Of a stretch of 21,872 nucleotides of DNA, positions 5,204 through 21,040 are shown piece after piece. A model generated the notes under the pieces. It searched no databases and was not told where the DNA came from. It saw only the letters and a list, made by a program, of their open reading frames with translations. The stretch covers positions 1-21,872 of the IMG/VR virus record IMGVR_UViG_3300047585_000080; one strand, given 5' to 3'. Both the position numbers and the translations under genes were made by a program. The first letter of the stretch is position 1. The number at the start of each line of letters is the position of its first letter. This DNA comes from a virus.

Positions 5204-5550
5204 TACTGACTCCCTGTGATCGGCGCCACCGGGATCTGCTGCATCATACTGTCGATCGCCTGCCCCTGGTTCTGATTGATCGCCGGCATCTGCTGCGTCA
5301 TGGAGTTCTGTGCCGAGAGCTGGTCACCCAGTTGCTTTTGCTGCTGGGCTTTCATCAAGGCCGCGATCAGTTTGGCGGTACCGCTGGTCGCGGCTGCCCC
5401 GGTGGAGGGTTGCCCCTGCGTATTGATCCCCGGCTGCTGACCCTCGTAGCCCGCGGCAGGTGCGGGATTCAACGGCGCCACCGGCTGGGCGCCGGAGATC
5501 TGCTTGTACTGGGCCAGCATCTGCTGCATCTGTTGAGGCGACATACTCAT
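5203..5550 (-). CDS. Met/Gln/Pro-rich small phage protein (115 aa)
   Basis: ATG 5550 overlaps the upstream stop (ATGA), and its TAA overlaps the next ATG. The N-terminus is a Met/Gln-rich helix (MSMSPQQMQQMLAQYKQISG). The middle is a disordered Pro/Gly/Thr stretch. The C-terminal half is again Gln/Met-rich and helical (TAKLIAALMKAQQQKQLGDQ). No domain is recognisable. The composition is the same as in the two neighbouring ejection-type proteins. It follows the haem-oxygenase-like gene directly and may be co-expressed with it. Confidence 0.65.
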   Translation of the reverse strand: MSMSPQQMQQMLAQYKQISGAQPVAPLNPAPAAGYEGQQPGINTQGQPSTGAAATSGTAKLIAALMKAQQQKQLGDQLSAQNSMTQQMPAINQNQGQAIDSMMQQIPVAPITGSQ

Positions 5551-6056
5551 GCGGCAACCTTCTGCAGTGCCCGCTGGCAGTAGCGGATCGTTTGGGTATA
5601 AGTCTGGGTGATTAGTTGCTGTTGTGTCGGTGTGGTCGCAAGGATCACGTCCCGAAGCTTCCGCGCATGCTCGCGATCGTGGAGCGCGTGGTAGTGAAGA
5701 GTCCGCAGCAAGCTCGCCGGGTACTCCTTCTCGAAGCGACTCATCAGCGCATCATCCGGAGAACGCTCCATGGCCTGCATGTAACCGAGGAGGGCCGCCG
5801 GATCGACGTGCTCGATGAGATAATAGACGCAACCGACCATCTCCATGGCCTCCAGCGGAATCTGCGTTTTCTTCACGTTCACCCCGACAGAGTCCAGATC
5901 CTCTGCCAGCCACTCGTCGTGACCGCGTTCCTCTTCCAGGTGGCTCCGGAAGTAGTCCTGCAGGGTCCCTGTGGAACGCTCACTGGCGCGCTCGAGCAAG
6001 CGCTCACTGGCGACCATCGCGTGATACAGGAAGATGAGGTTGGGGATCAGGTCCAT
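5547..6056 (-). CDS. Haem-oxygenase-like putative metal-dependent redox protein (169 aa)
   Basis: The protein is all-helical and non-repetitive, unlike its low-complexity neighbours. Residues 39-54 read HLEEERGHDEWLAEDL, giving the ExxH pattern E43/H46. Residues 121-134 read HYHALHDREHARKL, giving H123-x3-D127-x2-H130. These spacings resemble the metal-ligand helices of the haem-oxygenase-like (TenA/PqqC/'iron-containing redox enzyme') fold, including the di-iron oxidase members. A further acidic candidate, E82, lies in the intervening helix. The length is shorter than most family members at about 200-250 residues, so it may be a minimal form. I chose ATG 6056, which shares one base with the upstream stop (TGATG); a TTG one codon earlier is possible. 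It sits inside the ejection-protein genes. Fold assignment is fairly confident; metal content, reaction and substrate are unknown. Confidence 0.65.
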   Translation of the reverse strand: MDLIPNLIFLYHAMVASERLLERASERSTGTLQDYFRSHLEEERGHDEWLAEDLDSVGVNVKKTQIPLEAMEMVGCVYYLIEHVDPAALLGYMQAMERSPDDALMSRFEKEYPASLLRTLHYHALHDREHARKLRDVILATTPTQQQLITQTYTQTIRYCQRALQKVAA

Positions 6057-6880
6057 CAATACATGCTCGCCGCCGCCGCCAGAACCCCTACCCCTGCGCC
6101 GATGTCGGTGTTAGTCGAAGAGACGCCCGCATTGTAATTGGCCAACTGCCCCTGGTACTGATTCTCATAGGCCTGCATGATGTTCGGGGCCGAAGTCGAG
6201 GCGCCCGTCGTGGCATTGCCCGCAGCCCCGGTGCTGGTCGTGCCCGGAGCTCCGGTCGCGAGACTCAGGTAATTGGCGATTTGACCGCCCTGCGCCTGAT
6301 TCACATCCGAGATCTGCTGACCTTCGGCCGACAGCCCTTGGCCGAAGGCCTGATTCTCGGCCTGCCCATAAGCACTGGCCTGATTCGCATCGAAGGATTG
6401 CATCGCGTTGTCGTAGGCCGGCATCCCCGGAGTAGCGCCCGAATTGCGCAACGAAGCATCCAACTGCTCCCCCTGCTGCTGCCACATCGGATTCATCGAG
6501 GCGGTCTCAACCCCATACGCGGATTGCATCGCCTGCTGGCCGAACTCCTGATTCTGCCCTTGGGTAGGAAGCTGATAGTTCTGCAGCGTGTTGGCTACAT
6601 TCTGCCCCTGACCCCCAGCCAATTGCTGGGACTGCGATTCCAATCCCTGACTACCGGACAGCAATGCCTGCTCGGGAGCCGAGAGTTGGGTGGTGGAGGT
6701 GTAGGTCGGCGCGCCCCCGTATCCCGTCCCGGTCTGTTGATAGCTGGTCGATCCTGTGGGGCCGACCTGATTCACCTGATTCAATGCGGCGTTGTAGCCG
6801 GCGGCCTCCGTTCCGTACTGGTACTGGGCGGCGGCCGTTTGAACAGGATTAGGCGCGGCCGGGGCCGACGACTTGCCCAT
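6056..6880 (-). CDS. Gln/Gly/Ala-rich virion protein, probable DNA-transfer/ejection protein (274 aa)
   Basis: The N-terminus MGKSSAPAAPNPVQTAAAQ followed by NQVNQVGPTGSTSYQQTG is a pattern typical of podovirus proteins annotated as internal virion or tail/DNA-transfer proteins. These have a K-S-x-A-P-x-P start, an Ala-rich helix, then an 'N-x-V-x-Q-x-x-P-x-G' segment. The middle is Gln-rich and helical (about 70-215). The C-terminus carries a small-residue, mildly hydrophobic end (NTDIGAGVGVLAAAASMY) that could insert in membrane. The ATG follows the upstream TAA immediately, and a GGAGG ten bases upstream is a fair ribosome site. The role is analogous to P22 gp7/gp14-type components, by context and composition. 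Confidence 0.65.
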   Translation of the reverse strand: MGKSSAPAAPNPVQTAAAQYQYGTEAAGYNAALNQVNQVGPTGSTSYQQTGTGYGGAPTYTSTTQLSAPEQALLSGSQGLESQSQQLAGGQGQNVANTLQNYQLPTQGQNQEFGQQAMQSAYGVETASMNPMWQQQGEQLDASLRNSGATPGMPAYDNAMQSFDANQASAYGQAENQAFGQGLSAEGQQISDVNQAQGGQIANYLSLATGAPGTTSTGAAGNATTGASTSAPNIMQAYENQYQGQLANYNAGVSSTNTDIGAGVGVLAAAASMY

Positions 6881-12313: not shown

Positions 12314-13147
12314 TTACTCCGCAGCGGCTGCCGCAATGGCCTGAGCCCGCTTGGAGGTCTTGACACTCGCGGTCTTCACAGTCGGGGGAGCGGGCGTGAA
12401 ATTCGTGGCCTGCTGGACCTGCGGGCGCATCCCTTGGGCGAACTGGCTCTGCATGGCCGCGATGGTGGCTTCCAATTGCTTGATCTTCTCATCCTGCAGG
12501 CTGGACTTCTCCTCGGCTCTCGAGGCTTTGGCCTGCTCGTGCGCCACGATCTTGTTGCGATCCCGCTCACTTAATGCTGCGCGGGCAAGATCGCGGTACT
12601 TCCGGCCGCCCATGACCTGGGCCACATTGGCGTCAGAGAGCGCGGCGAGCGCTTCCACCGTGGGGATGGCGAGCATCTTCAGGGATTCGGCATAGGACCG
12701 TGTCACCACACCCCACTCCTCGATCGGCCAACCGTCGTCGGCCTTTTCGCCTTTGCGCATGAAGCGACCCCACGCGTTGGGATACTTGGCCGCATCCGGC
12801 GGGTCACCGTTCGGACACTGCCCTAGGACATTCCAGGTCGTGTGGTATTCGTTGGACTCAGGATCGATCGCGGTGTTGTACTCGATGCCCGCCCCCAGCG
12901 TATCCCACACGGTACGGGAATTACCCGGCGCCACGATGCGCACCCAGATGCGGTCCTGAAAGATCGGGAAACCCATGCACTCCGTCAGATACTCCATCGC
13001 ATAGGGCTTGATGTAGAACTCCACGATGAGTTCGCCATCCAGGCCATTACCGCCTTCTCCGGGTCGCCCATACAGCACTTTGGAGAAGTCGCTTTTCGGG
13101 CTCTCCAGGGCACGAGGGGGGGCGAAACTGGGATTATCGATGCTCAT
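12314..13147 (-). CDS. Phage structural-region protein with C-terminal coiled coil (277 aa)
   Basis: ATG 13147 overlaps the stop of the fusion-enzyme gene (ATGA). The N-terminal half (about 1-150) is a compact mixed domain with many aromatic and Pro residues (GELIVEFYIKPYAMEYLTEC, FQDRIWVRIVAPGNSRTVWD). A helical region follows. A clear coiled coil lies at roughly 192-238 (SERDRNKIVAHEQAKASRAE, then EKIKQLEATIAAMQSQ). The tail is a Pro/Thr/Lys/Ala-rich basic region ending in an Ala run. I recognise it only as a type of conserved hypothetical seen between capsid and connector genes of podoviruses. The coiled coil suggests oligomerisation; the function is unknown. Confidence 0.65.
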   Translation of the reverse strand: MSIDNPSFAPPRALESPKSDFSKVLYGRPGEGGNGLDGELIVEFYIKPYAMEYLTECMGFPIFQDRIWVRIVAPGNSRTVWDTLGAGIEYNTAIDPESNEYHTTWNVLGQCPNGDPPDAAKYPNAWGRFMRKGEKADDGWPIEEWGVVTRSYAESLKMLAIPTVEALAALSDANVAQVMGGRKYRDLARAALSERDRNKIVAHEQAKASRAEEKSSLQDEKIKQLEATIAAMQSQFAQGMRPQVQQATNFTPAPPTVKTASVKTSKRAQAIAAAAAE

Positions 13148-15123
13148 GAGGCCACCTTCAGCGTCTTGATGTCGGCGAGTTTCACCCGCCAGGTGTAATT
13201 GGCGCCCGTTTCAGGCGTGCCGAACAGTTCATCCACCGCGCGCTTCACTCCGAAGTCTGGGAAGTCGCGGTTGTCGTAATCGTGACCGGAAATGAAACCG
13301 GAAGTCTTCACCTTCGGGAGCCACGCCTGAAGATCGGCCTTGCAGCCTTCATACGAGTGATCGGCATCGATGAAGACGAAATCCAGGGAGCGATCGGGAA
13401 CGAAGAGCGCCGCCTCAGTCGAGAGATATCGCAGGAGCTTGGCGCGGGACCCAGCGAAGCGTATTGACTCCAGAGTCGCCTCGAAGTAACCGTCCTGCTG
13501 AGCTTGAGTCAGTCTTGCGTGATAGTCGCCCGATTCGGCATAGGTTGAGTCGTGGGCGCTCGTGCGCCAGTGATCCACCAGCCATAGCGTCAAATCCTCG
13601 CGCCGGAGCAGTTGGCGCGACATGGCCCCTTTGAACACGCCAATCTCAGCCCCCGCGGGGTTCGGCACGTCATTGAGCCATGCCAGCACCTGTTGAGCGC
13701 GTTGGCTGGCCGCAGGCTGCTCGAACTGGGAGGCGATCCAGGGAATCAGCCCCTCGCCGAATACCCGCACGACACACCCTTCTTCCATCAGCAGGGGAAT
13801 CAGCTCCTTGAAATCCTCCGCCTGAGTGATCATCCAGGGCGCGCATTTGAACGTTCGTCCCGCCACGGTGGCATCGACGACCTTCTCGCCGTCATTCAGG
13901 GGCTGATCATAAGCGTGGTGACTCGGGCCGTAGCTTGAGTCGAAGCCGAACAGCCGTAAGTGTCGGTGACCTAGTGCGCAGGCCAACGCGATGGCTTTCA
14001 AGCCGACCGTGGTGCCCCCACCGAGCTTCAGACCCTCGTGATTCTGAACACGCCACTCATAGCAGGTCTGAGCGGCATGCCAGCATTGCAGGTTCGTGGC
14101 GGCTTCCAAGACGGAAGGGTGGCATTGGGAGGCGTAGTACTGGATCCCTGTGGTTCCACGTGGAACGAACTCCAGATTGCCCTCTCTCGCATCCAGCAGG
14201 ACATGAGCGTCCGGTTGAATGCCGTGCTCCTTGAGGTACGCGTAGGTATTCCCGGTCGCGAACACCTTGCCACCGGACATCTGCATCCCCCGGATGTAGA
14301 AGAGATTCTGCGCAAGACTGGGTCCACCCCCCACGATGATCGCGGTGTCAATCGCGTTTCCGACCCTCATCCAGGAGCATTTTCGCGCCATGGCTGAAAC
14401 GACGTTCCCATGGAGGGTCTCGTCATCCACGTTCGCCTGAACGACCCATTCGGTCCCGGATCCTCCGCCGACCTTCCAGACCTCCGGCACCCATCCCGAG
14501 GTGACTTCATGCGGTCGGGGATGGCCATGAAAGAACACCACGGAGGTGCCACGGGGAATGAGCGCGCGGCAATCGGCCTTGTAGCTTTTGAGCTTGTTCG
14601 GGAAACGGTCCTGCAGGATAGCCGCCGTGAAAATCCCTGCGGAACCGTGCAGCTGAACCTCGAGATATTCCTGATCACCTCCGGGCCAAGGCAGATGTTG
14701 ATAGTCAGACCATCGAGACCAGAACAATTGAGTCCAATTGCCCGCTTCCCAGGCCATGACGGAAGATTGCAGACCGTTGGGCCGGTAGACGTCCCTGAGC
14801 ATGGCAAACGGCCCGTCGTAGGTCGCGATGGCATCCAACGGGCCGGTCATCACGGTATCCAGATCGAAGTACAGCACCCGTTCGCCCGGGTTAAAGGCTT
14901 CGGGCGAGAACAGCCAGAGCTTGTTCCACCAGCCAGTCAATCCACCGGGGAGGGGTCGGGCTTCGATGCCCTCATCCAACCCGGTGGGGTCATCCGTGAA
15001 GACCACGAACTTGCCGGGAAAGCCGGCCTGCAGATTCCGTCGCACACCGTCAAACAGGCGATTCACGTAGTCGGCGCCCCGACCGCAGTAATTGCCCGCA
15101 TTGACGGTGCAGACGGTCAGCAT
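13144..15123 (-). CDS. Three-domain fusion: glycosyltransferase-like, DUF115/Maf-like and methyltransferase-like (659 aa)
   Basis: I chose ATG 15123 because it overlaps the upstream stop (TGATG) and begins a normal strand (MLTVCTVNAGNYCG). A longer in-frame reading to 15348 gives an Arg/Asp/His-rich shadow. Domain 1 (about 1-215) looks like a nucleotide-sugar glycosyltransferase: an N-terminal Rossmann-like start and a FDLDT segment with the DxD signature at D87-L-D89. Domain 2 (about 255-465) has IVGGGPSL at 263-270 and a GGGTTVGLKAIALACALG helix with LFGFDSSYG at 368-399, as in DUF115/motility-accessory-factor-like proteins that handle acidic sugars. Domain 3 (about 488-659) has a SAM motif I-like GAEIGVFKGAMS, then FVFIDADHSYEG (584-593) and a GHDY segment, as in Methyltransf_24-type enzymes. 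A role in glycan modification of virion or host surface is inference. Confidence 0.75.
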   Translation of the reverse strand: MLTVCTVNAGNYCGRGADYVNRLFDGVRRNLQAGFPGKFVVFTDDPTGLDEGIEARPLPGGLTGWWNKLWLFSPEAFNPGERVLYFDLDTVMTGPLDAIATYDGPFAMLRDVYRPNGLQSSVMAWEAGNWTQLFWSRWSDYQHLPWPGGDQEYLEVQLHGSAGIFTAAILQDRFPNKLKSYKADCRALIPRGTSVVFFHGHPRPHEVTSGWVPEVWKVGGGSGTEWVVQANVDDETLHGNVVSAMARKCSWMRVGNAIDTAIIVGGGPSLAQNLFYIRGMQMSGGKVFATGNTYAYLKEHGIQPDAHVLLDAREGNLEFVPRGTTGIQYYASQCHPSVLEAATNLQCWHAAQTCYEWRVQNHEGLKLGGGTTVGLKAIALACALGHRHLRLFGFDSSYGPSHHAYDQPLNDGEKVVDATVAGRTFKCAPWMITQAEDFKELIPLLMEEGCVVRVFGEGLIPWIASQFEQPAASQRAQQVLAWLNDVPNPAGAEIGVFKGAMSRQLLRREDLTLWLVDHWRTSAHDSTYAESGDYHARLTQAQQDGYFEATLESIRFAGSRAKLLRYLSTEAALFVPDRSLDFVFIDADHSYEGCKADLQAWLPKVKTSGFISGHDYDNRDFPDFGVKRAVDELFGTPETGANYTWRVKLADIKTLKVAS

Positions 15124-15920
15124 CAGGCGCCTTCCAGCAGTGCTCGAGCCCCGTAGTACACCAGTGCCAGACTCTGCGTGCTGGTGGTGGTCCCGGTGGC
15201 GGCTCGCGCTCCCAGGATCTGCCCTCCGGTCGAGGACAGCACCTTGAAGCGCCCGTTGGTCCCTACCGCACCGACGAAGATCGGCACGTTCGGTGTGACC
15301 TGGACGGCGGTTTTCAGCGTCCAGGCCCGGCCTGAGATCTGATACCACGCGATGGTGATCTGGTTAGCCTGGGAGGCCAATCCTGAGCCATCGAACAGTT
15401 TCACGATCGGGTAGACCGTGCCTTGGGTCAGGGCCTGGGCGGTCGTGCTGACCTGGGCGCTGGAGACGGCCACCGCGGCCGCCTGACCGGTGTTCTTGGT
15501 CGTGCCCGACAGGATCGAGATGTTGTAGGTTGCATCCCAGGTGACCAATGTTCCCACCGGCAGCGCGGTCGAAATGGGATTGCGCAGGGCGATGAACTCA
15601 CCCCACCCCAGGGTCGGCTCGTAGGCGGTGATGATCTGTCCCGGCTGGACGGGGAAGATCGGGGCCGGCAGGACCGGCAAGGTCACCGTTCCCGGCGTCG
15701 CGGCCGCCGATTCAGGCTTCAGGAAAACGTTCCCGAATCCCAAGTAAGGACCCGGCAGATCGGCCCAGACGTTGCCGATGTCGTAGTCGCCCAACTGGTT
15801 GTTCTGCGCGATCCAGTTGTAGGCCTGACCGTTGGTAACGGTCGCGGGGAAGCCCGGCGGCACATAGGTCTGTGCGGCGAACGGAGACACCGGGGTCGCT
15901 TTGATTGTGATGATGCCCAT
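15123..15920 (-). CDS. Beta-rich capsid-proximal protein, possible decoration protein (265 aa)
   Basis: This gene follows the major capsid gene by ten bases, with a strong AAGGAG overlapping the coat stop codon. The protein is mostly beta, rich in Thr, Val, Ala and Gly, with no signal peptide. Distinct segments are WIAQNNQLGDYDIGNVWADL near residue 36, a central GWGEFIALRNPISTALPVGT, and a C-terminal SLALVYYGARALLEGA. Position directly after the coat gene and a strong ribosome site suggest an abundant head-associated product, such as a decoration or cement protein. I do not recognise a named family. The stop overlaps the ATG of the glycosyltransferase/methyltransferase fusion gene. Confidence 0.65.
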   Translation of the reverse strand: MGIITIKATPVSPFAAQTYVPPGFPATVTNGQAYNWIAQNNQLGDYDIGNVWADLPGPYLGFGNVFLKPESAAATPGTVTLPVLPAPIFPVQPGQIITAYEPTLGWGEFIALRNPISTALPVGTLVTWDATYNISILSGTTKNTGQAAAVAVSSAQVSTTAQALTQGTVYPIVKLFDGSGLASQANQITIAWYQISGRAWTLKTAVQVTPNVPIFVGAVGTNGRFKVLSSTGGQILGARAATGTTTSTQSLALVYYGARALLEGA

Positions 15921-15925
15921 GTGTG

Positions 15926-15931
15926 CTCCTT
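15926..15931 (-). promoter_or_regulatory. Strong Shine-Dalgarno for the post-capsid gene
   Basis: The minus strand reads AAGGAG five bases before ATG 15920, overlapping the coat stop codon TAA. It fixes that start and suggests high expression. Confidence 0.7.
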
Positions 15932-16913
15932 AAGCAGCCAGCAGGCCCTGGAGGAACCGGTTCGAGGTGGTCATGTTGCCGGCGAAGCCGACCAGCTTGA
16001 CCATCGCGTCCTGGTTGACCGCGAAACGCTCGTCCCCCAGCGGGGCGAAGTTTCGATCCTGGTGCGGGCGGAAGAACAGATACTTCGAGTTGAGGAAGAA
16101 CATCGTGCTCGTCGGTGCCCCACCCCCAAATCCACCATCCAGCACGACATCCGCGTTCATGTACTTCAGCGTCTGGAAGCCGAGCTCCGCCATATCCTCA
16201 TCGCCGATGCGCTGCAAGGCTTGCAGCGATTCGAGGTAATAGCGGTAGAAGTTGTTATCCGCCACGATCAGATCCGGGGCATCCGCGCCACGCACCAACT
16301 GCAGGTAGGTGCGATTCATGTAGGTCTGAATCGTGGCCGTCGAAACCGCAGCTCCACCGGTTGTGACCCCGGAGTAGAACACGTTGCGCCAGAACGCCCA
16401 CACCGAAGGATCGATACCGCCCACGACGCCCGAGGAGGGGGTCGTGGAGATCAGCAGCTGCAAGCCCCCGATCTGGCGTCCCCCATCGGCCGTGCCGTTG
16501 GAGTAGATGTCCAGCGCCACGTTATTGGTGAGGGTCTGTTCGGCGTTCTCGATACGCCCTTCGAGCAGGTCGATGATCGCCTCTTCGCCTGAGTTCTGCA
16601 GCATCTCGAGGCCCGAGATGGAGACCGCGACCGCCGCCTGGGCGTAGTTGTATTCCGCGCCCGTGAAGACATCGCTGGGCGAGATATTGAGGACTTCGTA
16701 CCCGGAATAGCGTTTGTACGTCCCGTTTTCCTGGTAGTTCAGCTCCTGCACGATGGTGCGACCGCCGGAGACGGGTTTGACCCGACCTCGAGCGCGCAAT
16801 CGGTAGAGCAGCGCATTGTTCTTGGTGACGTTATCGGCCAGCTTCCCCGTACGATTACGAAGAGTCGTGGTTACGATCTCGGTCACCGTGGCTGATGGGT
16901 TGATCAGTGCCAT
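15930..16913 (-). CDS. Major capsid protein (327 aa, HK97-type fold)
   Basis: This has the length and features of a podovirus/siphovirus coat protein. The N-terminal arm is MALINPSATVTEIVTTTLRN followed by a GKLADNVTKNNALL helix. An E-loop-like segment (about 46-75) carries a G-G-R-T-I-V-Q-E-L strand and an NYQENGTYKRYSGYE turn. A long spine helix follows (NSGEEAIIDLLEGRIENAEQ) and a TNNVALDIYSNGTADGGRQIGGL segment. The C-terminal half has LIVADNNFYRYYLESLQALQ and the FFLNSKYLFFRPHQDRNF strand typical of these proteins. It lies 18 bases after the scaffold gene, with GGGAG five bases before ATG. It forms the icosahedral shell. There is no N-terminal protease-like delta domain and no maturation protease gene nearby, so P22-like uncleaved assembly with a separate scaffold is likely. 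Confidence 0.88.
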   Translation of the reverse strand: MALINPSATVTEIVTTTLRNRTGKLADNVTKNNALLYRLRARGRVKPVSGGRTIVQELNYQENGTYKRYSGYEVLNISPSDVFTGAEYNYAQAAVAVSISGLEMLQNSGEEAIIDLLEGRIENAEQTLTNNVALDIYSNGTADGGRQIGGLQLLISTTPSSGVVGGIDPSVWAFWRNVFYSGVTTGGAAVSTATIQTYMNRTYLQLVRGADAPDLIVADNNFYRYYLESLQALQRIGDEDMAELGFQTLKYMNADVVLDGGFGGGAPTSTMFFLNSKYLFFRPHQDRNFAPLGDERFAVNQDAMVKLVGFAGNMTTSNRFLQGLLAA

Positions 16914-16931: not shown

Positions 16932-18116
16932 TTATAAGCGCCCTCGAGCTTCCTCAAAGGCGGACTTCAATTCATCGCGAATCGAGCGGTCCTTGCCGTT
17001 GGGCTGGCTGCTGGAGCCAGGCCCCCCTCGGATTGAGCCGCCCGCGCGGCGCTTGGCCTCTGCCTTGCGTCGCTTCTCCTCGACCTCTTTCGCCTTGGCC
17101 TGTTCGGCCTGAGCGATCAAGGTCGCGGTCTCGGGATGAGCCTTCACGGCGAGTTGATAGGCTTCTTCCAGGGTCGTGGCCGCCCCTCCGCCAAGGATGG
17201 AAGCCATCAGGCTTGTCACATGGTCGAAGTAGGGGTAGGCCGGCTGGCCGTTCACGACTTTGGAGCGGAAGCTCTCGATCTCACTGTTGGTTGCTTGCAT
17301 CTCCGCACGTTCACGCGCCTCGGTCTCTTGCCGTTGCCTCGCCTGGAACGCTTCGTTGACCTGTCGTTGCACGAGTTGGTCAATGGGAAGGTTGGGCGGC
17401 TGGCCTTGAGAGTTCTGCGCGTTGGGTTGCCCCACTAAACTTCTGACGTCAATCCCGTTCACCTGGGCGAGCTGGCGCAGCATCGAGGCGCGCACGGCGG
17501 GGTCCGGGTTACCTAACTGGGTGACGATGCCTAAGGCTTCCTTGAAAAAAGCCACCGGCGTGATTCCACGGGCTTGCAGGACGGGCGCGTACTCGTTCGC
17601 CGTCTGCATGAATTGGTTACCGACCCCGCGCACCTCGTCCTGGGAGCTGGCCTGACGGTGGATGTCGCGCTCGCGACGATCAATGATGTGCTGGACTTCG
17701 GGCGGAACTTTCGCCCAGAGCGCTTTCTCCTCGGGCTTCCAACTGGTGGGGGCGGGGAGGGCTACGGGAGAGGTCTGATTCCCAGCGACCGCTGCGTTCG
17801 TACTGCTTCCCGGTAGTACCGGTTGTACTCGAACTTCTCCTGATAGAGGATGAGTTCCTTCACCTGCTCCGGCGTCAGACTGTCGGGCGAACTTGCCGTC
17901 TGGCCCCCGCGCTCGTCCGGCGCCTGGTACTTCTTGAGGATGGCCGTCGCCCCTGCCGGGGTCGCTGCCCACTGCGCGTACTGACTCGTCCCGATTGCCA
18001 TCGTCTTTCTCCTGCCGCGCAGTGACTTCGCTTAAGGACGATTCCAACTCTTCCCGAATCGATTTCTCAGGAACTTCGATGTCGTCGGCTTCGGCGGTTT
18101 CAGCGGGCTCTTTCAA
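16932..18116 (-). CDS. Capsid scaffolding protein (394 aa)
   Basis: The position is right for a scaffold, between portal and coat, and the protein is highly charged. From the TTG at 18116, the first codon after an in-frame stop, it opens with an acidic helix (DDIEVPEKSIREELESSLSE). A disordered Gly/Pro/Arg region follows with a GRARGPDGKFARQ segment common in phage scaffolds. Then comes SWKPEEKALWAKVPPEVQHI with RRERDIHRQASSQDE, a typical scaffold block. Helices and a Gln/Arg/Glu coiled coil (about 235-280) follow, and the end is basic: SIRDELKSAFEEARGRL. The C-terminal helix likely binds coat, as known for P22 gp8. Residues ~39-118 overlap the nested 79-residue frame, and their third positions are unusually AT-rich there. 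No ATG start exists before residue ~163. Confidence 0.75.
   Translation of the reverse strand: MKEPAETAEADDIEVPEKSIREELESSLSEVTARQEKDDGNRDESVRAVGSDPGRGDGHPQEVPGAGRARGPDGKFARQSDAGAGEGTHPLSGEVRVQPVLPGSSTNAAVAGNQTSPVALPAPTSWKPEEKALWAKVPPEVQHIIDRRERDIHRQASSQDEVRGVGNQFMQTANEYAPVLQARGITPVAFFKEALGIVTQLGNPDPAVRASMLRQLAQVNGIDVRSLVGQPNAQNSQGQPPNLPIDQLVQRQVNEAFQARQRQETEARERAEMQATNSEIESFRSKVVNGQPAYPYFDHVTSLMASILGGGAATTLEEAYQLAVKAHPETATLIAQAEQAKAKEVEEKRRKAEAKRRAGGSIRGGPGSSSQPNGKDRSIRDELKSAFEEARGRL
16950..16985 (-). repeat. Intragenic repeat, copy B (scaffold C-terminus)
   Basis: These 36 bases encode SIRDELKSAFEE. They align without gaps to 18027-18062, which encodes SIREELESSLSE; the first eight bases, TCGATTCG, are identical and most of the others match. 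Conservation at DNA level suggests duplication within the gene or strong shared selection. Confidence 0.5.
17762..18001 (-). CDS. Nested alternative-frame protein inside the scaffold gene (79 aa)
   Basis: ATG 18001 has AGGAG seven bases upstream, and the frame ends at TAG 17762-17764. The product starts MAIGTSQYAQWAATPAGATA, has a helical middle (SLTPEQVKELILYQEKFEYN) and a basic end (RYYREAVRTQRSLGIRPLP). It looks like an ordinary folded small protein. The great majority of its codons end in G or C, as in real genes here. The scaffold frame over the same bases has mixed third positions and encodes a Gly/Pro/Arg linker. Past this stop, the GC-rich third position moves back to the scaffold frame. 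I read it as a true overlapping gene; a pair of frame errors in the sequence is the alternative. Function unknown, possibly an assembly factor. Confidence 0.6.
   Translation of the reverse strand: MAIGTSQYAQWAATPAGATAILKKYQAPDERGGQTASSPDSLTPEQVKELILYQEKFEYNRYYREAVRTQRSLGIRPLP
18009..18013 (-). promoter_or_regulatory. Shine-Dalgarno for the nested 79-codon frame
   Basis: The minus strand reads AGGAG with a seven-base spacer before ATG 18001. It is better than anything before the scaffold's own TTG start. Confidence 0.55.
18027..18062 (-). repeat. Intragenic repeat, copy A (scaffold N-terminus)
   Basis: This encodes SIREELESSLSE and pairs with 16950-16985 (SIRDELKSAFEE) at the other end of the same gene. 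It lies just upstream of the nested frame. Confidence 0.5.
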
Positions 18117-18477
18117 TCAAACCCCCGCGCTTGTGATCGGGCCGTGTGTGCTCGGCAATCGCGCGGCGCATGGACTCCGCGACCTCGCCCTTCTTGACCG
18201 TCGATCGCATCTGCTTCGTGGGCCTGATCGGCTCAGTCCCCAACTCCACCAGCTTGTTGCGCTTCAGGAATTGCTTGTGCTGCTGGCGTGTCGTGATCGG
18301 CTTGCCCATCATGTCACCGCCGACTGCAATGTAGGGAGTGATGTCGCCAAACCCCTTGCAAGCCGAGATGACGCGCGTCACGGGGTGCTCATGCTCAGGC
18401 GGGACTTTGTAGTCCGCCATGGAGCGCCAGACCTCAATCGGTCCGCACATCTCACAGTGATATTCGTAGGTCGGCGT
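18100..18477 (-). CDS. FmdB-like zinc-ribbon protein with apparent ACG start (125 aa)
   Basis: Read from the ACG at 18477, the protein starts (M)PTYEYHCEMCGPIEVWRS, which matches the FmdB zinc-ribbon consensus MPTYEYxCxxCG. C8 and C11 form the first metal pair. Where the family usually has a second CPxC knuckle, this protein has EHEH (29-32; H29 or H31 as numbered from E28) before PVTRVISAC. The C-terminal half (PITTRQQHKQFLKRNKL, 60-76) matches a tail seen in phage FmdB-like proteins. An in-frame TGA lies two codons before the ACG, so no ATG or GTG can give the consensus N-terminus. The first ATG (18450) falls inside the Cys pair. AGGTGA lies just upstream, within and after the portal stop region. 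The stop overlaps the scaffold start. A regulatory role is named in the family but not proven here. Confidence 0.7.
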   Translation of the reverse strand, partial: TPTYEYHCEMCGPIEVWRSMADYKVPPEHEHPVTRVISACKGFGDITPYIAVGGDMMGKPITTRQQHKQFLKRNKLVELGTEPIRPTKQMRSTVKKGEVAESMRRAIAEHTRPDHKRGGLIERAR

Positions 18478-18484
18478 ACGTCAC

Positions 18485-21040
18485 CTAGTCTTTCTTGGCA
18501 TGCCCGTTAGGCTTGGCCTTGACCATCTTACCCTCATGCTCGCGCTGTTTCTCGCCCTCACTCGACTGATGCTTCAGATCCATCTCGTGCTGTGAGCCCT
18601 GGTGGTCCAGGTCCATGCGCTTTTCCTGCAGCTTGGTATGCGAGTCCATCATCGCAATGTGGATTTTCGCCGCGGTCTCGAACTGTACGCGCTCGGCCTC
18701 AAACTTGTTCTTCAGCTCCTGAACCTGCATGTCGCTCGCGGCCTTCATCTGGGCTTTGTGCTGTTCCAGCTGGGCCTGTAACTGCGCGTCGTGCTGAGCG
18801 CGGGCCTGCTCCATCTGGTTCTCGACCTGACTCTGCTGGCTCTCGGCCTGCTGCTTCGCTTGGGCGATCTGGCCCTCGAGCTTCGCTTTCATGGAAGCGA
18901 CCTGGATCTGAGTCTGCGCCTCCATCTGGGCCTTCTGCACCTCAGGCGGGGGGCCTTTGGGCTGGCTGGCGGCCTTCTGAAGTGCGTCCATCGCATCCTC
19001 GAATGCCTGCTCGATCGGTCTCGCGCTCTTGAAGCTACGGATGGCGAACATCATCAGCTCGCCCAGCATGGGGATGATTTCAGGCGCGGTGGATCCGGCC
19101 ATGACGGCCTTGTCGAGGAAGCCGCCGACCGCGGTCACGAGTTCCACTCGGCTGGCCTTCTCGGCGTCGTCATCCATGCGGATGGTGGAGTCGGTCTCGA
19201 TGTCCAGCCGGAACTCGCGGTTGACCGGATTCTGCAACAGGTTCTCGACCTCTTCCCAGGTCGGTAGCTCCAGTAGAGCCAGTTTCTCAGGGCTGGGGGG
19301 CGCCTGACCGGGGGCAGTCGCACCCATATTGGGCGCGGCCTGCGGGTGCATCATTCCGGGAGAAGCCTGTGGAGGGGCGTTTGCTCCGGGCGCTCCTTGC
19401 GGCGGGGGACCTCCCGGAGGCGCACCAGGCGGCCCTTGTTGTCCCGGGGGAGGGGCCGGGGGAGTCTGAGCAGTGGACTGCTGCTGCATGAGCTGAATTT
19501 GGACCTGGAGGGTGGACTTTTCATCGTTGGTGAGCAGCTTGACGCCACTGATCTGCTTGAGGGTCTCGATATCGTACTGCGCCACGATCTCGCCCACGAT
19601 CCGAATCACATCCCGGGCAAAGCGCTGCACCTCCATCTGCGCGTCCTGAATCCGCAGGATGCTGAAGTTGCCCTTCATCTCCTGAGCGGTGGCGGTCTCG
19701 TTCGGATCGCTGAAGCCGCGCACAATATCCGCGATGCCGGTGAGCTGATAGACGTCCTCGATCAGGCTGGCACGCTGTTCCCTCAAGTCACTCAGGGCCT
19801 GGGCAATCTCCGCCAAGGGCAGCAGTTCAAAAGAGCCGGCTAAACCGCCCTTGTCTTTATGTGCGGCCCATCCCGAGACAGGAACAAGCTGATTCTCCAC
19901 CCCTTCGCTAAGCAGACGGTCCAGACCTTCCGCACTCGCATCGCGGACACCAGCGACCTTGAGGGCCTTACTAATAGCCACAATTCGGGTGGAAAGCTCA
20001 TCGATCTCGTTCGCCTGGTCCTGATAGAAGGTGAAATTGGGGGTCGGGAGCAGCTCATCACTGAGCGTGTTGGCCATCAATGGCCGGGGACAGGGGAAGA
20101 AGTTGTTCAGGCCCAGCTCATCGTCCCGTTGATCCAGGAGCTTGTGGAAATTCTTCACCAGCCAGTAACGACAGCGTTTGTGCTTGTCGTGAATCTCGTA
20201 AACTACTGCTTTCTTGCGGGTGATCTTGATCTGGGTATCGGTGAGGTTCTTGGGCGACCAGTCGAGCGGGATCATGAGGATCTCCGCCTCGCTCAGCTCC
20301 GTGAAGCGCTCTCTCAATTCATCTCGGTCCATGAAGACGCGCTTCCACAGAAGCCGCACTTCCTGCCAGGTCCGGGCCCAGGACCATCCTGAGTCTTCCC
20401 AGGAGACGTAATCGATGATCGTCTCCTCGTACTTCAGCTTCTCTTCCGTGACTTCATCTTCTTCGTCAGAGGTCGTCGCCTCTCCCTCGGTCTCGGTTTT
20501 CTCGTTCTGCTCACCCTCAATGGCTCCTTCATCCTTCGCGGCCGGCAATTCCGGCTTATGGAAGTGCGGCTCGTATCTCACCCACACGCTGGCCATGCCG
20601 GGCAGCTCGTAATCCTGCACTGCCAAACGCATCACATAGAAGAAGTCGTTGACGTGGTCTAGGGTGTACTCAATCGAACGCTCTAGGATTTCGGCAGCCG
20701 TTCGACCAATAGGGTCACGATCCTTGTAACGCCGCTCAACGATGGGCTTGGGGTTACGTGCGTATAGCGCAGGTAAGCGAGTCTGAACATTCGCCCACAG
20801 AATGTTATAGCGAGTGATCGCGTCCTCTCGTGGGGAACGTACATCCCGATACTTCTTGAGTATTTTACGGCCCCGCCGAAGAAACTTGTCGAATAGACGC
20901 TCATGGGTATCGATCTCATCTTTGAGCCAGCCCACTACGGGGGTGAGTTCCTGACCAGGATGGGGATTGACCGAGCCGCCCTCCTTGACCTTGCGTGAGC
21001 GCTTGGCCGGCGAGCCATCGGCCATCAGGATTCGGCTCAC
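18485..21040 (-). CDS. Portal protein (851 aa, P22-like, extended C-terminus)
   Basis: GTG 21040 overlaps the stop of the small upstream gene (GTGA); an ATG six codons in is an alternative. Portal-type features run along the first 590 residues: a helical start with RYNILWANVQTRLPALYARN (78-97), ERRYKDRDPIGRTAAEILER, an acidic low-complexity insertion at about 168-205, and the central ADIVRGFSDPNETATAQEMK segment (437-456) in the stem/clip region. A Pro/Gly/Gln-rich stretch interrupts the protein at 526-584. The fold resumes at 585-690, and a long Gln/Glu/Lys coiled coil fills 695-838. P22 gp1 is about 725 residues with a helical barrel at its C-terminus; this one is longer. It forms the dodecameric DNA channel at one capsid vertex. 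Confidence 0.85.
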   Translation of the reverse strand: MSRILMADGSPAKRSRKVKEGGSVNPHPGQELTPVVGWLKDEIDTHERLFDKFLRRGRKILKKYRDVRSPREDAITRYNILWANVQTRLPALYARNPKPIVERRYKDRDPIGRTAAEILERSIEYTLDHVNDFFYVMRLAVQDYELPGMASVWVRYEPHFHKPELPAAKDEGAIEGEQNEKTETEGEATTSDEEDEVTEEKLKYEETIIDYVSWEDSGWSWARTWQEVRLLWKRVFMDRDELRERFTELSEAEILMIPLDWSPKNLTDTQIKITRKKAVVYEIHDKHKRCRYWLVKNFHKLLDQRDDELGLNNFFPCPRPLMANTLSDELLPTPNFTFYQDQANEIDELSTRIVAISKALKVAGVRDASAEGLDRLLSEGVENQLVPVSGWAAHKDKGGLAGSFELLPLAEIAQALSDLREQRASLIEDVYQLTGIADIVRGFSDPNETATAQEMKGNFSILRIQDAQMEVQRFARDVIRIVGEIVAQYDIETLKQISGVKLLTNDEKSTLQVQIQLMQQQSTAQTPPAPPPGQQGPPGAPPGGPPPQGAPGANAPPQASPGMMHPQAAPNMGATAPGQAPPSPEKLALLELPTWEEVENLLQNPVNREFRLDIETDSTIRMDDDAEKASRVELVTAVGGFLDKAVMAGSTAPEIIPMLGELMMFAIRSFKSARPIEQAFEDAMDALQKAASQPKGPPPEVQKAQMEAQTQIQVASMKAKLEGQIAQAKQQAESQQSQVENQMEQARAQHDAQLQAQLEQHKAQMKAASDMQVQELKNKFEAERVQFETAAKIHIAMMDSHTKLQEKRMDLDHQGSQHEMDLKHQSSEGEKQREHEGKMVKAKPNGHAKKD

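Follow-up and report, generated by a model that had tools for sequence, protein, structure and literature searches.

A candidate overlapping gene nested in the scaffold linker of a small clade of podovirus-like phages

Genomic Context of the Nested Reading Frame

The scaffold protein gene of an uncultivated phage contains a second, complete reading frame, which raises the question of whether this frame encodes a protein of its own or is open by chance. The window, i.e., the whole stretch of DNA analyzed, is a 21.9-kb virus record with genes on the minus strand, to which all window coordinates given below refer. The predicted scaffold protein gene (16932..18116; 394 aa, TTG start) is located between the genes encoding the portal protein (18485..21040; PHROG 12082, E 2.9e-180) and the major capsid protein (15930..16913; PHROG 9953, E 2e-125), and has homologs in L001 (66%) and L002 (57%). 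Searches of PHROGs and Pfam gave no match of the protein to a named family of scaffolds, and the assignment rests on the position of the gene and on relatives that occupy the same place. A linker (17760..18002) that is of low complexity in the scaffold frame and variable between relatives lies within the protein, and in the middle of it is RARGPDGKFA (17886..17915), a motif of which some form was found in the scaffolds of 44 of 66 relatives. The order portal, small gene, scaffold, and capsid is shared with the head genes of Mx8-like podoviruses; the scaffold protein aligned with Mx8 p47 (31%), and for the capsid protein of Mx8 the value was 49%. The annotations of Mx8 p47 and of the corresponding gene in Bradyrhizobium phage ppBjS10J-1 list no nested gene.

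The small gene between portal and scaffold (18100..18450; 116 aa) has counterparts in L001 and L002, and lacks an in-frame ATG, GTG, or TTG at 18451-18490, where those of the relatives start (MPTYEY). The sequence at this place, GTGACGTACG, looks as if it contained one extra base, or else the gene has an unusual start codon. Elsewhere in the window, one ORF among the structural genes (13144-15348; 734 aa) carries an MptE-like domain (PF01973) together with a Methyltransf_24 domain (PF13578), and the product of 5547-6059 matched Haem_oxygenas_2 (PF14518) barely above the cut-off. Rfam gave no match in the window.

Start, Stop, and Codon Signal of the Nested ORF

The nested ORF (17762..18001) lies entirely within the scaffold gene, on the same strand and in the +1 frame relative to it, and comprises 79 codons from ATG to TAG, with the translation MAIGTSQYAQWAATPAGATAILKKYQAPDERGGQTASSPDSLTPEQVKELILYQEKFEYNRYYREAVRTQRSLGIRPLP followed by the stop. 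It has its own Shine-Dalgarno sequence, AGGAG (18009..18013), separated from the ATG at 18001 by a spacer of seven bases. The stop is formed at the scaffold valine codon GTA (17763..17765) of PVALPAP, of which TA and the next G yield the nested TAG (17764-17762). The AGGAG, its spacer, the ATG, and the stop had been reported in a preliminary description of the locus and were confirmed, as was the composition described there, with G/C-rich third positions in the nested frame, mixed ones in the scaffold frame, and a return to GC-rich scaffold codons past the nested stop. The codon-position GC over the nested ORF was 0.62/0.49/0.80; because of these values, the third-position GC of the scaffold frame was 0.49 across the nested ORF, compared with 0.75 after the linker. 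Order-promoting residues made up 13% of the overlap in the scaffold frame and 27% of the nested product.

The main rival to an overlapping gene is a frame that stays open by chance, a somewhat unlikely explanation in our assessment. G+C-rich, low-complexity linkers in which Ala, Gly, Pro, Arg, Glu, and Gln are abundant seldom contain stops in +1, and Gln-Glu codons (CAG GAG) can give rise to an AGGAG incidentally. Consistent with this, the +1 frame was equally far open in approximately 40% of synonymous recodings of the linker, and long open +1 frames were present in many unrelated relatives. An ATG ORF of the nested length appeared in the recodings with P ~0.03; the length of the ORF by itself is thus only modestly above chance. 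On the other hand, the window contains 91 distinct out-of-frame readings with a length of 60 aa or above. Among these, the nested ORF ranked second in coding likelihood, and was the only sense-strand ATG reading with a Shine-Dalgarno sequence of at least five bases, whereas two antisense readings with ATG and Shine-Dalgarno sequence had coding scores much below it. Length, codon usage, and Shine-Dalgarno sequence together make the nested ORF stand out from chance.

The codon likelihood in the window linker was 0.13 for the +1 frame and -0.22 for the scaffold frame, and sliding windows placed the switch of the codon signal between frames at approximately codons 40 to 100. The nine highest differences between +1 and scaffold frame among the compared loci all belonged to this phage group. 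However, nulls that preserved the linker's own codons were exceeded by many loci that have no ORF and separated the clade poorly, and unrelated loci also gave values above zero, so the composition of the linker accounts for part of the nested codon signal. The flip in codon likelihood was set aside as sole proof for this reason, and because L010 and L135 show the flip without conservation of the nested frame. The codon signal is consistent with an overlapping gene, but not decisive.

Conservation of the Nested Product

Among the fetched loci, L003 (4937-5137) encoded a homologous +1 product that was 52% identical to that of the window over 50 aa (E 4e-9). L085, which came from another metagenome, was identical to L003 over 654 bases, and both were returned by an independent scan of the collection. 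The window and L003 were aligned with the ATG and the scaffold motif as anchors and a single, frame-neutral gap of 6 bases, which was placed by nucleotide identity alone and fell where the nested proteins need it. Within the first 28 codons after the ATG, 16 were identical in the nested frame and 10 in the scaffold frame. Against a null of random substitutions and random gap placement, the nested frame was conserved (P 0.0015 for the whole stretch, 0.0008 for the first 28 codons), whereas the scaffold frame was not (P 0.09 and 0.48, respectively). For the block taken from the protein alignment, an earlier test had yielded P values of 1e-4 to 5e-4; the anchored values are the fairer ones because this block had been picked by nested similarity.

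Under a freely gapped nucleotide alignment of the window and L003, conservation of the nested frame was not significant (P 0.14-0.17), and none was found in the other pairs compared, as a chance frame would predict. In L010/L135 the scaffold frame was the conserved one (P 0.0013 vs. 0.99 for the nested frame). The conservation evidence for the putative product therefore rests on one pair, window/L003. The homologous product and its conservation in L003 argue against a chance frame, and the homologous +1 product of L003/L085 supports the earlier proposal that a small protein overprints a disordered scaffold linker.

Recurrence of Start and Stop among Relatives

Dozens of relatives were obtained from IMG/VR scans. 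Eight phages including the window formed a clade on the scaffold body (support 95/92), with L009 as its sister. A +1 ATG ORF was present in the linker of all eight members, and absent from L009 and others, which speaks against an ORF that arises from linker composition by chance. In seven members the nested ATG occurred at the same place, 16 bases past the start of the same arginine codon. The Shine-Dalgarno sequence at the matching spot was AGGAG in L086, L103, and L002, and GGAGGAG in L003; in L001, L014, and L089 it was weaker, with purines that resemble a Shine-Dalgarno sequence. The nested stop was located at the valine codon of (P/E)V(A/T)LP, in seven of the eight; the nested frame of L002 ends earlier, at codon 41, and that of L086 at an earlier GTA-G. 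This valine codon was GTA in every member, though GTA accounts for 7-14% of their valine codons. Among 35 invariant fourfold columns, nine kept one codon throughout the clade, and of five valine columns only the one at the nested stop kept GTA, the others having GTC, GTG, or mixtures. The recurrence of the ATG position and of a stop in a rare codon speaks against chance, and the rare GTA supports, but does not prove, a stop kept for a nested gene. Clade members share ancestry, and a simple product of GTA frequencies is therefore too optimistic.

The preliminary description had set a nested frame broken by stops over a conserved linker against its own proposal. L002 fits this in part, with an in-frame stop after 41 codons of the nested frame, but its scaffold linker is not conserved there either. 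Its +1 frame (L002:5086-5290, plus strand) stays gene-like past the in-frame TAG (LERLRRFQKAFEQTHQPPREILAQ), which suggests a truncated former nested gene.

Outside the clade, the scaffold linkers of a sister group carried a strong codon signal in +1, and the +1 products were dissimilar (L004:4787-5122, L007:4892-5218, and L010:4862-5110, plus strand). These loci and L135 are not claimed as the same nested gene, given their dissimilar products and unclear starts. A related capsid gene was identified in 14 of 397 prokaryote genomes of one order, at most 69% identical and outside the nested group. Contig 5 of a Bathyarchaeota MAG (G002, locus L097) likewise carries scaffold and capsid genes of the type seen in these phages, and the capsid match there is in two pieces; this is probably a misbinned phage contig.

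Interpretation of the Nested ORF

We consider it probable that the nested ORF is a genuine overlapping gene, borne by podovirus-like phages of one small, uncultivated clade, because a homolog exists in L003, the nested frame is conserved in that comparison, the ATG and stop recur within a supported clade, and the sister L009 lacks the ORF. The initial idea of overprinting gains from the same points, given that the nested frame and not the scaffold frame was conserved in the anchored alignment. Ribosomes on the late structural mRNA would initiate independently at the internal AGGAG-ATG and produce a soluble, mostly helical protein of 79 aa, while the same bases in the scaffold frame would encode a disordered linker. 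Such a linker may tolerate almost any sequence, which would leave the second frame free to evolve fast and to be swapped among phages. The best reading of the locus is a fast-evolving nested gene.

An improbable explanation is a cis-acting role of the internal start and stop, with out-of-frame initiation and release tuning scaffold output and the peptide itself irrelevant. The recurring start and stop around a hypervariable middle would fit this, as would the predicted hairpin that encloses the Shine-Dalgarno sequence and ATG in the window; however, this hairpin was not significant (z -1.4), no in-frame restart codon for the scaffold occurs close past the nested stop, and the window/L003 pair is conserved at the peptide level. 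A frame switch by two compensating indels, mentioned in the preliminary description as an alternative in which the 79 codons truly belong to the scaffold frame, would explain why gene-like codon usage appears in the nested frame exactly where the scaffold frame has none, but it is rejected as very improbable because RARGPDGKFA is in the scaffold frame mid-overlap and independent contigs agree, several of them showing the same two-frame layout and L003 and L085, from different metagenomes, being identical in the overlap region.

AlphaFold, run on a two-sequence alignment, predicted helices at residues 7-12, 15-26, and 44-72 (mean pLDDT 70, pTM 0.31), so that the "structured" protein anticipated earlier is weakly borne out by three helices. 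The product had no significant family match in PHROGs, Pfam, or PADLOC. The search of the 79 residues against phage proteins that had been suggested at the outset yielded no relative in phage and plasmid records, apart from a single weak hit at chance level (E 0.3). Its role is most likely that of an accessory late protein, which could be a head-assembly helper or a virion or host-interaction factor.

Linker Turnover and Possible Cassette Exchange

Scaffolds that are otherwise near-identical have almost wholly different linkers. In L003 and L014, the DNA is approximately 88% identical on both sides, but homology is lost at the nested ATG and returns near the end of the ORF. Among L003, L014, and L089, the flanks are 88-92% identical and the linkers are near shuffled similarity, whereas comparable pairs outside the group retain somewhat more linker similarity. 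Furthermore, the scaffold body of the window pairs with that of L001 (100/99), and its nested product resembles that of L003. We tentatively propose that the scaffold linker is a docking site for small, exchangeable +1 genes that are swapped between phages as cassettes, with a scaffold frame that would need only to stay open and disordered. Such an exchange would explain the breakpoints between L003 and L014, the dissimilar linkers, and the combination of an L001-like body with an L003-like product. Alternatively, rapid drift of a disordered linker through indels may have produced the same pattern.

Comparison with Known Systems and Implications

The protein encoded by gene D of phage phiX174 is an external scaffolding protein. 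Gene E is nested in gene D in a different frame, so that a small gene is entirely contained in a larger one, as is the ORF described here (PMC8227390). The phiX174 E protein is a membrane lysis protein; an E-type role was ruled out for the nested product because no stretch in it is hydrophobic enough to resemble a transmembrane segment (maximum 19-residue mean hydropathy 0.28). The phage in this study is also a tailed dsDNA phage, unlike phiX174, and its overlap lies in a variable linker. In ShiLan-domain insertions, an out-of-frame HNH endonuclease is hidden in a tolerated insertion (PMC11855218). The likeness lies in a stretch that is a tolerated loop in its own frame and a separate protein in the other, and in a patchy distribution. 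However, ShiLan insertions encode a homing endonuclease without a detectable ribosome-binding site (PMC11855218), whereas the products here are 60-80 aa long, with a clear Shine-Dalgarno sequence in the window and no match to an HNH or other nuclease domain in PHROGs, Pfam, or PADLOC. In lambda Rz/Rz1, one phage gene is embedded out of frame in another (PMC5295617). Rz1 is an outer-membrane lipoprotein that works with Rz; for the nested ORF, neither a signal nor a lysis context was seen.

This kind of arrangement is already known from phiX174 E in D and from ShiLan; the novelty would lie in the possible exchange of cassettes within the scaffold linker. Gene-calling programs discard an ORF when it overlaps a longer gene, and small overlapping genes of phages are therefore missed. 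If the overlapping gene is real, hidden phage genes could be sought in the disordered linkers of structural proteins, and more than loose constraint would account for the near-complete linker turnover among phages that are otherwise similar.
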